The translations under genes and the position numbers were made by a program. Shown here piece by piece: positions 8,680 to 31,545 of a stretch of 33,254 bases of DNA. This DNA is from Deltaproteobacteria bacterium (GTDB lineage: Bacteria > Myxococcota_A > UBA796 > SXON01), in the NCBI GenBank assembly GCA_947484175.1, contig CANKOI010000044.1:1-33254 (forward strand), given 5' to 3'. Position 1 is the stretch's first letter. Every line of letters begins with the position of its first letter. A model generated the notes under the pieces. That model saw only the letters and a list, made by a program, of their open reading frames with translations, was not told the DNA's origin and did no database searches.

Positions 8680-8785
8680 CTTCCTCTCGCGGGCGGCCCT
8701 CCTTACCGGCTACACGCGGGTACGCAACCCTGACGAGGGTGACCGCGTGAGTTAGCGTGTGCCCCCCCCCACCACCGGGTTGGAA

Positions 8786-10222
8786 ATGATTCACGGTCTC
8801 GTTTTCAGCCTGCTCGCGTGTACGCCAGAGTCTGGCACGGTCGGCACCGAAGATGTGCGCATCGATCATGCGAAGTCGAAGATCGAGAGCCTTTTGCCCC
8901 GGACGTGTGTCCAGGAACAGGGAATCCTCTTCAGCGTTTGGCAAGACGACCGGGATGGCCACCAGGCGATCTGGTTCAATATGTCGGCCGACGGCGGGGT
9001 CACCTTCCTCGGCAGCGACACCCTGCTCAGCCTTGGTGAAGGCGATGCGCTCAACCCCGCCATCGCTTGCACGGGCGACCACGTGTACGTGGCCTGGGAA
9101 GACAAGCGCGACGGGGAGCTGGGCTACGAGAACATCTACGTCCAGTGGTCCGACGATCGGGGTCGGCACTGGCAGAAGGAGGACCTCAGCCTCGACGCGG
9201 ATCCGGAGGGCAAGACCATCAGCTTGGCCCCTGCGGTGGCCGCAGCGGGCGACGGTGCGTGGGTCGTGTGGTCCGACAGCGTGAACGGGGCGTACGACAT
9301 CTACGTGAGTGGCACCGCAAATGGCGGTGAGGACTGGTCGGAGAAGCCCGTTCGGGTCGATACCGACGAAGCCGGCGTGGCCTACTCGGGGAGCCCTCTG
9401 ATCGTTGGGGGCGACGACGGTCAGGTGGTTGTGGCGTGGGAAGACCGGCGCAGCGGCGGCACGGATATCTACGCGAACGACTCCGACGACGGTGGGGAGA
9501 GCTTCGAGGGGAGCGATACGCGCCTCGACGCGGGCGATGAGGCGGGCTCCCATGACAGCTTCCTTTCGGGTCTCGCGCGCGCAGGCCACAATGCCTACGC
9601 GGTGTGGGCCGACGACCGCTTCGGCCTGAACTCGGACATCCTCCTCAGTTATTCTCACACCGGCGGGAACAACTGGGTGGAGGAGCCCGTGCGGGTCGAG
9701 TCCGACGCCGAAGGCATTGCCGACTCCATCAACGCGACGGTGGTAGCCGTGGAAGATCGCGTCTTTGTGGCCTTCCAGGACAATCGCGCGGGCGGCGGGT
9801 ACGACATCCTGTTGCGCTGGTCCGACGACGCTGGTGAGGCGTGGGCGATCGAGGAGGAGGTGCGCATGGAGACCGACGACCCGGGCGAGGCGCAGAGCTA
9901 CTTCCCCCACCTCGCCGTAGACGGTGACATGTGGGCGGTGCAGTGGATGGACTACCGCGACGACATCAAGGGCGTCGGCTTCAACGACCTCTACTACAAC
10001 TACACCGTCGACGCGGGCACCACGTGGCAGGGCTCCGATGTGCGAATCAACAGCACCTCGCTGGCCACCAGCTTCGCAAACGAAGCCAGTTTTTATCTCC
10101 GCGGTGGTTTCGTGGTGACGGTGTGGGCCGACGGGCGCACCGGTAGCACAGACGTTTTCGCCGCGGGCCGAGAGGTGGGCGAGGAGAGCGTGTGGATTGA
10201 GCCGGAAGCGGCCACCGAGTAG
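8786..10222 (+). CDS. BNR/Asp-box beta-propeller lipoprotein
   Basis: This 478-residue predicted lipoprotein starts MIHGLVFSLLAC, a very short leader ending in a lipobox-like LLAC. It contains seven complete repeats and one half repeat of about 50-55 residues. Each has a V-x-V-x-W-x-D-x-R strand (AWEDKRDG, AWEDRRSG, VWADDRFG, AFQDNRAG) and then an Asp-box-like turn (SADGGVTF, SDDGGESF, SDDAGEAW). This is the BNR/sialidase-type beta-propeller. Catalytic sialidase residues (the Arg triad and FRIP motif) are not recognisable, so it is more likely a surface binding protein than an enzyme. An in-frame GTG at 8759 followed by a run of nine C is a possible earlier start. I prefer 8786 because of the lipobox, though its ribosome site is weak. 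Confidence 0.8.
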   Translation: MIHGLVFSLLACTPESGTVGTEDVRIDHAKSKIESLLPRTCVQEQGILFSVWQDDRDGHQAIWFNMSADGGVTFLGSDTLLSLGEGDALNPAIACTGDHVYVAWEDKRDGELGYENIYVQWSDDRGRHWQKEDLSLDADPEGKTISLAPAVAAAGDGAWVVWSDSVNGAYDIYVSGTANGGEDWSEKPVRVDTDEAGVAYSGSPLIVGGDDGQVVVAWEDRRSGGTDIYANDSDDGGESFEGSDTRLDAGDEAGSHDSFLSGLARAGHNAYAVWADDRFGLNSDILLSYSHTGGNNWVEEPVRVESDAEGIADSINATVVAVEDRVFVAFQDNRAGGGYDILLRWSDDAGEAWAIEEEVRMETDDPGEAQSYFPHLAVDGDMWAVQWMDYRDDIKGVGFNDLYYNYTVDAGTTWQGSDVRINSTSLATSFANEASFYLRGGFVVTVWADGRTGSTDVFAAGREVGEESVWIEPEAATE

Positions 10223-10227
10223 GCTTC

Positions 10228-11532
10228 GTGCTCCTCCTCCTGGTGGCGTGTTCCGCGGGGCCCCCCGACCCGAGGCCCGGCTTGCGTGCTCGCTGGGCTG
10301 GGCTGCGGAGCGTGAAGCTCGACGCGGCTCAGGCCTTCCGCGACGCCCGTTACGGCGAAGCCTGCGCCGCGCTCAAGCTCTCGCTGGCTGGCGCGCCGGG
10401 TGCATCCCCCGCTGAGGAAGCCGGTTGGGCGAGGCTGCTCACGGTGGCTGCGCGCGACCCCGCCTGCCTCGATGGGGTGGACGGCGACGCGATCGCCGAG
10501 TGGGGAGCGGGCCGCAAAGGGTGGACAGATGCGGTGGGGGAGTGGCGTGCGGGCCGCGGCCTCTACGTCGACCCCGTGGGCCTTGCGCCCGATTCCCGGC
10601 TGAGCGTGGCCTTGAGGGGCGATTCGAGGGCGCCCGTGGTGGATGCGGCGCTGTTGGTCCTTGCGGAAGACCCCCAAAACGCACGCGCCTGCTCCCTCCT
10701 GGTGCAGGACGACATCGACCGGGGCGAGCTGCTTCTGGGCCTCGGCCGCTGCCCCGACGTCCACACCTCGGCGCTGGTTCGCCTGCGCGCCGCCGCTCTG
10801 GACGAAGCTGGGCGATTCGAGGAGGCGGTCGCCGCCTACGACACCGCCGGATTCACGCTCCACAGCGCGGCCGTCTTGTACCAGGAGCGTGCCGACCTCG
10901 ACGACGAGGTCGCTCGTCGCCTCGACGAACCCGTGCCGCCCGCCGCCCTCCACCGCGCGTGGTTCGATCTGCTTCGGGGGCGCTCCCCGCGGTTGACCGG
11001 CCTCGACGAGAGCCACGAGGCCCTGCTCGTACGCGCGCTGGCCGGAGATACGGACTCGGTCGCCGCGCTTCAAGGCGTGCCGGGGGTCGAGGCCAAGGTG
11101 CTGCACGCCCGGCTCACCGGTAGCGTCGAGCCGCTCGATGCCTTGTTGGCCGCCGATCCGGACAACGACGTCGTCTGGAGGGCTCGGCTTGGCGTGGCAT
11201 TGGAGCAGGGGTTCGATCTGGAGGAGAGTCTGGGAAGGCTGGCAGCCCGCGATCCCGATCACCTCCGCCTCCGCCACCCCACCCCGCGGCGCGAGGCTCC
11301 TTGGAGCGCCATCGTGCCGTGGACGTGGGAGCGCTTACGTTCCCGCCTCCCTGCGCTGGCCGCTGTCGGTGAGGACGACGTGGGGCGGAACTGGAGAAGG
11401 GCGGTGGCGCAGCCCGAGAGCGAACGATCCGCGGCTCTGGCGGAACTTCAGACGGCCCACCCCGAGCTGAGGGGGCTGGCGCGCTTTCGAGCCGGAGGAT
11501 CGATCCTTGACGGCCCCGCCGGGCTGAGATAA
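10228..11532 (+). CDS. Predicted lipoprotein with TPR-like helical repeats
   Basis: I do not recognise this 434-residue protein. It opens at a GTG with MLLLLVACSAGP, a seven-residue leader before the candidate lipid cysteine, with no positive charge. The rest is Ala/Leu/Arg-rich and helical. It contains several segments with TPR character, such as ARYGEACAALKLSLAG near residue 40 and EAGRFEEAVAAYDTAGF near residue 200. A C-terminal part has WTWERLRSRLPAL. The start is 5 bases after the stop of the propeller lipoprotein, so the two are probably cotranscribed and may act together at the outer membrane. Its last codons overlap a promoter-like sequence for rplM. Confidence 0.7.
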   Translation: MLLLLVACSAGPPDPRPGLRARWAGLRSVKLDAAQAFRDARYGEACAALKLSLAGAPGASPAEEAGWARLLTVAARDPACLDGVDGDAIAEWGAGRKGWTDAVGEWRAGRGLYVDPVGLAPDSRLSVALRGDSRAPVVDAALLVLAEDPQNARACSLLVQDDIDRGELLLGLGRCPDVHTSALVRLRAAALDEAGRFEEAVAAYDTAGFTLHSAAVLYQERADLDDEVARRLDEPVPPAALHRAWFDLLRGRSPRLTGLDESHEALLVRALAGDTDSVAALQGVPGVEAKVLHARLTGSVEPLDALLAADPDNDVVWRARLGVALEQGFDLEESLGRLAARDPDHLRLRHPTPRREAPWSAIVPWTWERLRSRLPALAAVGEDDVGRNWRRAVAQPESERSAALAELQTAHPELRGLARFRAGGSILDGPAGLR

Positions 11533-17874: not shown

Positions 17875-20631
17875 ATGCGCCTATCTCTTCGCTACGCCCC
17901 GCTCGTTCTCGCCCTCGGCTGCCCTGAAGGTGGGAAGGATGAGGACTCCGGAGGCAGCGACATCGGCTCCGACACGGGTGACATCGACCACGGGCCGCCC
18001 GGCTGCATCAACCTCAACGGTGAAGAGGGCGACTTCGCCACCATCACCGAAGCCATGAAGTACGCCGCAGACGGCGACACCGTGAACGTGTGCGCGGGCG
18101 AGTACTCGGAAACCGTGACGATTCTCAAGGCGGTGGCGGTGGTCGGGGAAGGCAGCCTGCTGAACAGCATCGATGCGCCCGTGAACCAACCCGCATTCGA
18201 CATCGTGGCGAACGACGCGAGTGTGTCGGGCTTCACGATCACCAGCACCCGATCCGGCGTGGTGGTCGAGGATTCCACGAACGTGGCCCTCACCGACCTC
18301 GTGTTTGACGCCCCCGCCAACTACGGTGTCGAGGCGTCGGAGGCCACCAACCTCACGATCAGCGGCTGCACGTTCACCTACGCGGCGTACGGTGGGGTCT
18401 TTCTCAGCGGCGGCTCGGCCACGGTCGACAGCTCGGTGTTCAACGAGCCCACCAGCTACGGAATCTGGGCCACCGACGGCAACGTGCTCATGGCTACGAA
18501 CAACGTGTTCACCGGCGTGGTGGCCACGGCCAACGACGGCAGCGACGGGCACGCGATCTTCGCGCAGAAGAGCACCGTTTCCACGATGCAGAACCAGGTG
18601 AGTGCCACCGAGCTGTTCGGCTTCTGGGTGGAGGATGGTTCGCTCACGATGGATGGCGACGTCATCAATGACGCGGCCTACGGCGTGCTGGCGTTCGACT
18701 CCGTCTTCACCGCCACGGGCGTGTCGATCTACGGCGCGCAGTCTCAGGGAATCTACGCTTCAACGTCCTCCGGGCCCGTTGCGATCACCGATACAAACGT
18801 GCTCTTGAACGGAGGCGCAACCACGGGGCTCACCTCCTGTTCGGCGGGCTACACCGAGTTTGCGGGGTGGTGCGGGGGCATCCTCGTGGCGGCGCCCGAG
18901 CTGAGCCTCTCGGGTGTCAGCATCGCCGACTACGAGAACTACGGCGTCTACTTGGTGCCGTACAAGGCGTCTGGCGAGATGAACCTGTCGATCACCGACA
19001 CTTCGCTCGACAACAACGGGCGCTGGAGCCTTTTCGCGAGCAACGTGGTGGCTGCTGTCGACGGGCTGAGCGTGACGGGACACCGTGAGCCCGACGCCGC
19101 GAACACCCAACCCTGCTACGGCTACGTGAATCAGGGCACCTCCGCGGTGTTCGAGCTCTCCGAATTGACGATGGTGAATTCCACGATTGTGGGCAGCGAG
19201 GGCTGGGGGTTGTCGTTGGTGCAGTCCACGGCCGACGTGGCCGCGTCCACCCTCGGCGCCGCGGAGTGCGCGGGGATCATCTCGTACGAGAGCACGCTGG
19301 TGGGGAGCGGAAACACATTCGGCTCCGGCACCGACTACGGCGCCGTATTCAACTACTCGGGCGCGCTGATCCTCGACGGCAACAGCTTCGTGGACACGAG
19401 GGTGACCGACATCGACACCTACGAAGACACCAGCAATCCCGGTGCCTATACGCGCTACGAGTACACCAACCAGGGCCGCGACGTCACCTCGACCTACGGC
19501 ACGGCCTGCCAGATCAGCAACAACACCTTCACCGGCGGCGGCATCTCGGTGGTCGTGGAGATCAGCGGGTGCGACATCCGTGGCAACTCGTGGAACGACT
19601 ACAACGGCACCCTCGTGCAGGCCTATCAGGGCGACCCGAGCGACCCGGTGGTGGTGAAGGACAACGCGGCGGACGACTTCGGCGGGCAGGCCGTGTATGC
19701 CACCTACGGGTACGTCGAGGTGGAAGACTTCCGAATCGGGGACACCCGGCCGTATTCCTACGGCTACGCCTCATACTACGTGGCCGCGGATGGCACGGAA
19801 ACGCTCAACTACAGCTACGAGGCCAGCTACGGCAACCCCGTGTTTGAGTCGTACGGGTACTACTACGGATACTGGAGCGACACCGACGCCGACGGCATCG
19901 CCGACACGTACACGGAGACGGCGCTCCCCAGCGGGATGTCGCTGAAGAACGTGAGCGTCGGCAACGCGTACTCCACCGTGGTGCAGGGTCAGGAAGCCAC
20001 GCTGGAGATCGTGGACCTCAGCGTGGAGTCGAGCGGCGGCTACGGCCTGTACGCCTACTGGGGCCACTACGCGCCCGAGCTCGAGATCGAGGGCATGGAC
20101 ATCGGCTCCACCGCCTACGCGGGCATTCAGCTCGACGCGAACTCGGCAGACGCGGGCTACGCGCTGCTCACCGACGTGGAGATCGGCGTAGCCGGCGGAG
20201 CCGGCGTGAGCTTGACGGGCTTTGCCGAATGGGCGGTCAGCGAACTTTCGGTGCTCGACGCCGGTTCGCATGGTTTCTACGCTACGGGGGAGAACAGCTA
20301 CTACGACTCCGCCACCTCCACGTGGATGACCACCCCGCTGGAGCACATCGGTTCGCTTCAAGACTCGGTGATCGTCGGCGCCACGTTGGAAGGCGTGTAC
20401 GTGCAGAACGGCACCTTCCTGCTGGAGGGGGTGAATGTCTCGAGCGCCGACACTCACGGCGTGACGTTGGGCTCGCTGACCGCTTGGGTGGAAGACAACG
20501 CGCTGACGGGCAACAATGGCTACGGCATGGCCTGCTCGTCGGTGGTCTTCTCCTACTGCGGTGCGAACGACCTCAGCGGCAACACGGCCGGCGAGCACGA
20601 TGGCTGCTCCGACGACTGCGTCGTCTTCTGA
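17875..20631 (+). CDS. Right-handed beta-helix lipoprotein
   Basis: This is a predicted surface lipoprotein of about 918 residues. From the ATG at 17875 (GGAG seven bases before) it has a proper leader [16 protein letters not shown] with a lipobox-like LALGC and an Asp/Gly/Ser-rich spacer. The entry segment [30 protein letters not shown] is typical of pectate-lyase-like (PbH1/DUF1565) solenoids. About thirty short rungs then repeat the pattern of small strand, turn and G-V/I (for example [19 protein letters not shown]). A Tyr-rich stretch at about residues 605-690 breaks the rungs. It includes DTDADGIAD (669-677), a thrombospondin type 3-like calcium motif. No catalytic site is evident. It may bind polysaccharide or mediate adhesion. 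Confidence 0.85.
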
Positions 20632-31158: not shown

Positions 31159-31234
31159 GGCCGGGTAGCTCAGTTGGTAGAGCAGGGGACTGAAAATCCC
31201 CGTGTCGGCGGTTCGATCCCGTCCCCGGCCACCA
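31159..31234 (+). tRNA. tRNA-Phe (GAA)
   Basis: This 76-nt tRNA includes an encoded CCA end. The acceptor stem GGCCGGG/CCCGGCC is perfect. The D arm contains AGTTGGTAGA and the anticodon stem GGGGA/TCCCC frames CTGAAAA with anticodon GAA at 31192-31194. The T arm is GGCGG-TTCGATC-CCGTC with TTCGA; its stem has one wobble or mismatch. A short hairpin (ACCAGC/GCTGGT, 31231-31248) starts at the CCA and may help 3' processing. It stands alone, not in a tRNA array. Confidence 0.97.
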
Positions 31235-31254
31235 GCTTTTCCGCTGGTCCCCCG

Positions 31255-31545
31255 ATGGTGCTCCTCGTACTCCTCGGCTGCGGTGCCGACAGTTGTTACC
31301 AGCTGTGCGCCACGACGGCTCAGGCGCTTGAGCCCTGCTTCGCTGAGTGGGGCGCGACATGGGAGGATTTCGACGCGGCCACCCGTGTGGCGTGGGGCGA
31401 TCGCTGCCGGGCCCAGTGGGAGGAGCAGCGGGTTCAGATGGAGCTGCGCCAAGTGGACGTCGCGAGTGCCGCGTGCACCGAGGCCAGTGACGAGGTTCGC
31501 CGGCTGTCGTGTGATGAGCTTCGTGCGCTCTACTTCGACCCGTGA
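31255..31545 (+). CDS. Small Cys-rich predicted lipoprotein
   Basis: This 96-residue protein of no recognised family begins MVLLVLLGC, so the candidate lipid cysteine is residue 9 after a leader with no positive charge. The mature part has six more cysteines (C14, C18, C28, C51, C74, C86) in a helical, charged sequence, probably held by disulfides. The ATG at 31255 lies 20 bases after the tRNA-Phe gene, and an open frame extends backward through the tRNA. I placed the start at the lipobox. A weak ribosome site leaves some doubt. Confidence 0.6.
   Translation: MVLLVLLGCGADSCYQLCATTAQALEPCFAEWGATWEDFDAATRVAWGDRCRAQWEEQRVQMELRQVDVASAACTEASDEVRRLSCDELRALYFDP

Follow-up and report, generated by a model that had tools for sequence, protein, structure and literature searches.

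What is the least that a bacterium can use as a lipoprotein signal peptide? The question is raised by three predicted proteins in the window (the whole 33,254-nucleotide stretch of DNA analysed here, which is contig C44 of the source genome G000, a 4.37 Mb assembly of 167 contigs with a G+C content of 67.7%). The first-pass annotation had reported short N-termini without positive charge at positions 8786, 10228, and 31255, and all three lie where it placed them. We refer to these proteins as A, B, and C; their leaders have 11, 7, and 8 residues, respectively, and contain neither lysine nor arginine. We consider it about 80% probable, on the basis of sequence comparisons, that all three are real lipoproteins with a "naked h-region" leader that has no n-region, and that the relaxed requirement behind them lies at the level of the Sec pathway.

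Protein B (10228..11532, forward strand, 434 aa) has no Pfam match at E ≤ 0.01. Its leader, MLLLLVA (10228..10248, forward strand), begins with a GTG start codon and has 7 residues and no K/R. The lipobox cysteine codon follows at 10249..10251 (forward strand), with L-V-A at positions -3 to -1, so that the lipobox L-V-A-C fits the pattern [LV]-[ASTVI]-[GAS]-C given in a passage of PMC8048626. An in-frame TGA stop codon is located at 10198-10200, and the nine codons from there to the GTG at 10228 include no ATG, GTG, or TTG. The predicted leader thus has 7 residues before the cysteine, because GTG 10228 is the only one of these codons between the stop and the lipobox. We searched 58 genomes (G000 included) for homologs and found B in 19 of them, its own included. 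Loci L018-L021, in which the N-terminus was not covered, were dropped, and the lipobox cysteine is present in all 16 B homologs that were counted. In homologs L006, L009, and L012 only 10 or 11 codons separate the stop from the cysteine, which bounds the leader tightly whatever the start codon.

Protein C is a cysteine-rich protein of 96 aa (31255..31545, forward strand) and has no Pfam match at E ≤ 0.01. Its leader, MVLLVLLG (31255..31278, forward strand; ATG start, 8 residues, no K/R), is followed by a lipobox cysteine codon at 31279..31281 (forward strand) that is supported by both the sequence and the homologs. The lipobox is L-L-G-C, with a leucine at -2 that falls outside [LV]-[ASTVI]-[GAS]-C. 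Homologs of C occur in 51 of the 58 genomes (its own included), and the cysteine is present in 30 of 30 homologs inspected, the best-scoring 30 of 59 places. The distance from stop to cysteine is 10 or 11 codons in L057, L059, L060, L061, and L069, again bounding the leader whatever the start codon.

An obvious rival explanation is that translation begins further upstream, at a standard or an unusual codon, and that the true leaders are of ordinary length. B, with no upstream ATG, GTG, or TTG, speaks against it, and the evidence from C points both ways. A tRNA-Phe (GAA) gene (31159..31234, forward strand) lies 20 nt upstream of C, and the sole in-frame start that would give a longer leader is a TTG within this gene. 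In 19 C loci the lipobox cysteine is within 60 nt of the GGCCACC end of the tRNA, and in 18 of these 19 it is in frame with the tRNA, the frame running into the tRNA gene. At five C loci (L062, L065, L076, L080, and L081) there is no ATG, GTG, or TTG at least 6 codons before the cysteine between the tRNA and the lipobox. In some relatives, translation of the C leader may therefore start within the tRNA gene or use an unusual codon. Either is less likely for C in the window, because its nearest homolog (L054, 79% identical) has an ATG at the same leader position, -8, but another reading frame with respect to the tRNA. The B homolog L017 (ITPLLPLLLAC), which has no ATG, GTG, or TTG at 5 or more codons before the cysteine within the 40 codons upstream of the lipobox, may likewise begin at an unusual codon.

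Protein A (8786..10222, forward strand, 478 aa) is encoded directly upstream of B, and this adjacency is also found in relatives. It is a BNR-repeat protein that passes the curated cut-off of BNR_2 (PF13088) with 36.1 bits against 31.4. The leader MIHGLVFSLLA (8786..8818, forward strand; ATG start, 11 residues, no K/R) precedes a lipobox cysteine codon (8819..8821, forward strand) that is again supported by sequence and homologs; as in C, the lipobox (L-L-A-C) has a leucine at -2, outside [LV]-[ASTVI]-[GAS]-C. The start of A is the least certain of the three and longer starts are possible, as the in-frame codons GTG 8759 and TTG 8780 lie between a stop at 8753 and the ATG at 8786, and our gene caller preferred GTG 8759, which gives a leader of 20. 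The nearest homolog (L024) likewise has an ATG at -11, with different residues upstream. Homologs of A were found in 34 of the 58 genomes (its own included), and 30 of 30 inspected (the best-scoring 30 of 37 places) have the lipobox cysteine. Genomes are grouped here into families f1 (the family of G000) to f6, all of the same order. Among f1 homologs of A, 14 of 20 have a start at -10 or -11 (10 ATG, 4 TTG) and no K/R in these 14 leaders, several of which also have longer possible starts. In all 10 f3 homologs the start lies between -12 and -15, and the leader contains an arginine. A run of nine C is present at 8762-8770, between GTG 8759 and ATG 8786, and would count as a slippage site only if an upstream start were in use.

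The first-pass annotation had suggested a survey of leader lengths in related genomes. A simple codon-usage gene caller was applied to stretches of 15 genomes; the stretches were mostly contig starts, with seven genomes (G011, G019, G022, G038, G049, G060, and G066) giving at most 71 kb each. For each lipobox gene we kept the first cysteine at least 5 residues past the called start (reducing 50 rows to 46 in G000), and the chance expectation was taken from the frequency of cysteine after the same hydrophobic pattern. In G000 (20 sampled stretches and the window), called leaders of at most 10 residues were found in 23 of 46 lipobox genes, against 1.13 expected, and 8 such leaders were fixed by the first start after a stop codon, against 0.51 expected. 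We then pooled nine genomes from f1, f4, f5, and f6 (996 genes, 131 of them lipobox genes). The called leader has at most 10 residues in 68 of the 131, a count that does not include protein A, and is longer than 10 in the remaining 63. None of the 68 short leaders contains lysine or arginine. A first possible start after a stop bounds 33 of the 131 at 10 residues or fewer (1.83 expected), and in 13 lipobox genes the stop and the cysteine are no more than 14 codons apart. In six other genomes (one each from f2 and f3, two of the same class, and two of the same phylum; 417 genes), 1 of 26 lipobox genes is short and none is start-bounded. When the two samples are compared, Fisher's test gives P = 1.7e-6 for the short leaders and P = 0.0026 for the bounded leaders, values to be read with the caveat that genes and genomes are not independent.

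These counts also bear on a second rival explanation, namely that the short leaders are not signal peptides and merely reflect hydrophobic N-termini and chance cysteines in a high-G+C genome. At 67.7% G+C, the codons CTC, CTG, and GTG are plentiful, and a short hydrophobic start can easily come about. Nevertheless, chance would account for only 3.66 of the 68 short leaders in the nine genomes, where cysteine is about 18-fold over its chance frequency. We also counted a 24-base motif encoding Met-[FLIMV]5-[Ala/Gly]-Cys over whole genomes, without gene calling. It occurs 678 times in the 22 genomes of f1 (range 2-106; 25 in G000), 138 times in 4 genomes of f5 (90 in G029, 40 in G041, and 4 each in G025 and G034), and 64 times in 4 genomes of f6 (59 in G038 and 1-3 in the rest). 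There are 14 occurrences in 10 genomes of f4, 27 in 16 genomes of f3, and 1 in 2 genomes of f2. Outside the order, 47 genomes contain 39 occurrences, with 0 to 4 in each, and both controls are near zero: a motif with tryptophan in place of cysteine occurs 12 times in f1 (22 genomes) and 23 times over all 58 genomes, and the reversed motif 0 or 1 times per genome. Taken with these controls, a chance origin is very improbable. Short leaders are dense in f1, and their presence in f5 and f6 is patchy. Its density does not simply follow the tree, since G021 (f1) has 2 occurrences and G025 and G034 (f5) have 4 each. Extrapolating from the 23 cases in about a tenth of G000, there are probably a couple of hundred short-leader proteins per genome.

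The survey further constrains the position of the starts. Across the DNA sampled from the nine genomes, the same hydrophobic core is immediately preceded by ATG in 8 of 35 cases and by GTG in 7 of 35, and 12 of these 15 codons are called gene starts; in the six other genomes, neither codon precedes the core in any of 5 cases. ATG and GTG are thus over-represented exactly before the core. Ribosome-binding sites do not favour the short starts: in G000, a Shine-Dalgarno-like site precedes 9 of the 23 short starts, compared with 130 of the 328 other genes and 494 of the 1640 random sites; for a strict Shine-Dalgarno motif, the counts are 0 of 23 short starts and 43 of 328 other genes. Weighing these against the stop-bounded leaders, we regard upstream initiation as improbable for the three proteins, and as a general cause of the short leaders we reject a start-codon error on the strength of the stop-bounded cases. 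The first-pass annotation had left a choice between wrong starts and acceptance of minimal leaders by this lineage. The latter is well supported by the stop-bounded leaders, the conserved start positions, and motif counts that are high in one family and in parts of two others and low outside the order; for A, a wrong start is a possibility.

To ask whether proteins with such leaders are exported, we scanned 30 of the 68 short-leader proteins against Pfam. A family was matched at E ≤ 0.01 in 19 cases, and 16 of the 19 scored above a curated cut-off. The matches include subtilase, sulfatase, FG-GAP repeats, MopE repeats, YceG, GDSL lipase, lysyl oxidase, and a fusion of a di-haem oxidoreductase with cytochrome c. 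This fusion protein (L217:10812-13142) has four CXXCH haem-binding motifs and a GGAGG upstream of its start. Its predicted leader cannot exceed 8 residues, because the GTG start directly follows a stop codon. Haem is attached to CXXCH motifs outside the cytoplasm, and for this reason the cytochrome is very likely to be exported.

A third rival explanation holds that a specialised LspA or Lgt, rather than a relaxed Sec pathway, permits the short leaders. Matches to LspA were found in 56 of the 58 genomes and to Lgt in all 58; among these genomes, no lspA match was found in G023 and G036. G000 has two lspA matches (C56 and C68) and four lgt matches (C56, C87, C27, and C35), and the number of lgt matches ranges from 2 to 9 per genome across the order. 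The Lgt copy number is uninformative because it is high throughout the order. We aligned one LspA from G000 to a solved LspA, and the aspartates aligned to the catalytic pair, which is named in a passage of PMC8048626, are kept in all 18 LspA sequences aligned. Between these two presumed catalytic aspartates, the loop in LspA of this class exceeds that of two outgroup copies by about 12 residues.

Both the extra gene copies and the longer loop could be read as signs of specialisation, and neither tracks the trait. G013 has a single lspA copy and 106 motif hits, whereas G025 and G034, each with two copies, show 4 hits apiece, so we rejected LspA copy number as the cause. The longer loop was rejected as well, since it is shared with f3 and with a genome of the same class, both of which lack abundant short leaders. 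Moreover, leaders of the signal peptidase I (SPase I) type are shortened too, in the genus of G000 and in f4-f6. A specialised LspA or Lgt is therefore an unlikely explanation, if a slightly better one than upstream initiation.

To identify the shortened SPase-I-type leaders, we took proteins that have no lipobox and whose hydrophobic N-termini are uncharged and near-bounded, and looked for an AxA-like site at a leader length of 10-20; some of the rows counted are lipoproteins that escaped the filter. In the two genomes of the genus, 20 of 28 have such a site, against a shuffled mean of 7.9 (sd 2.2), and in f4-f6 the count is 11 of 11 against 4.2 (sd 1.5). No enrichment was seen in four other genera of f1 (4 of 10 against a shuffled 4.2), and f3 and four outside genomes contributed 2 rows each, too small a number for a judgement. 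This is moderate evidence that the n-region may be dispensable for Sec more generally, beyond Lsp substrates. The first-pass annotation had treated minimal leaders as a matter of Lsp, which appears too narrow given that SPase-I-type leaders also often start at the hydrophobic core, with moderate support and not in those four f1 genera. For the same reason, the step that is relaxed is most likely targeting or translocation and not Lsp alone. We judge it slightly better than an even bet that this lineage largely does without the n-region, with some couple of hundred exported proteins per genome using about 6-10 uncharged residues, through the Lsp route and in part the SPase I route, a reading that would give Sec signals a new lower bound in nature.

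Ordinary leaders occur in the same genomes, as the first-pass annotation had noted. One in the window (17875..17919, forward strand) has 15 residues, 2 of them arginine, and 11 of 12 f1 loci inspected for BamD-type proteins have an n-region with K/R. In E. coli, BamD is a lipoprotein, and we considered the BamD-type proteins (PF13525) as a yardstick for lipoprotein leaders. This was dropped because the 30 loci inspected (L239-L268, the G000 copy not among them) have SPase-I-like leaders and no lipobox by eye.

We propose that a hydrophobic core of about 6-8 residues would by itself suffice for Sec targeting. The predicted leader consists of a methionine, 5 to 9 mostly hydrophobic residues, a small residue, and the lipobox cysteine, and its only positive charge would be the free (deformylated) amino group of the methionine. 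The cysteine would next be lipidated by Lgt, and cleavage by LspA would then free a peptide some 6 to 11 residues long. Ordinary basic leaders persist alongside the short ones.

The short leaders share with known type II (LspA-cleaved) Sec signals an uncharged hydrophobic core, a small residue at -1, a cysteine at +1, a residue at -3 that is mostly leucine, and genomes that encode Lgt and LspA. They differ in lacking the expected basic n-region, which a passage of PMC8048626 describes as a feature of lipoprotein signals, and in length, at 7-11 residues against the usual 16-25 quoted in the first-pass annotation. In one published bacterial set, the position of the cysteine averages 21.4 +/- 2.7, according to a section of PMC13068155, and the search motif given there has R or K close to the start, a feature missing from all 68 short leaders. 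The residue at -2 also differs, from [ASTVI] in the pattern quoted from PMC8048626: leucine is the commonest in the short leaders (37 of 68). With leucine also allowed at -2, 93 of the 131 sampled lipobox genes pass, 52 of them short. Judged by these features, the short leaders are a variant of the lipoprotein signal peptide and not a canonical member, because both the basic n-region and the usual length are wanting. Among type I (SPase I) Sec signals, the n-region-less leaders of 10-16 residues with AxA-like sites in these genomes resemble them. Type I signals differ in that they end in an AxA-like site and not in a lipobox cysteine, and their normal members in the same genomes have a basic n-region.

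Enterococcal peptide pheromones are hydrophobic peptides of about 7-8 residues that are cut from lipoprotein leaders of ordinary length. The likeness to the short leaders is one of size and composition only, as here the whole leader has that size. Searches of open-licence PMC papers gave no description of such leaders. If our reading is correct, natural leaders of 7-8 residues would show the minimum usable by Sec, Lgt, and LspA, and ready-made hydrophobic heptapeptides would be set free when they are cleaved. A basic n-region and a clearly longer leader are built into current models and motif rules, so the secretomes of these bacteria would be badly under-predicted, and a lower limit of Sec would have been invisible to such rules, which these leaders escape. 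The role of n-region charge could be addressed with natural pairs, namely the orthologs of A with and without an Arg-containing n-region within one order.

The gene for C is located downstream of tRNA-Phe at all 30 loci inspected (L053-L082). In the window, the encoded ACCA end of the tRNA pairs with the sequence just 5' of the C start codon in a 6-bp hairpin at 31231-31248 (-9.2 kcal/mol; the 30-nt stretch has z -3.4), which may be linked to 3' processing of the tRNA or be a short terminator.
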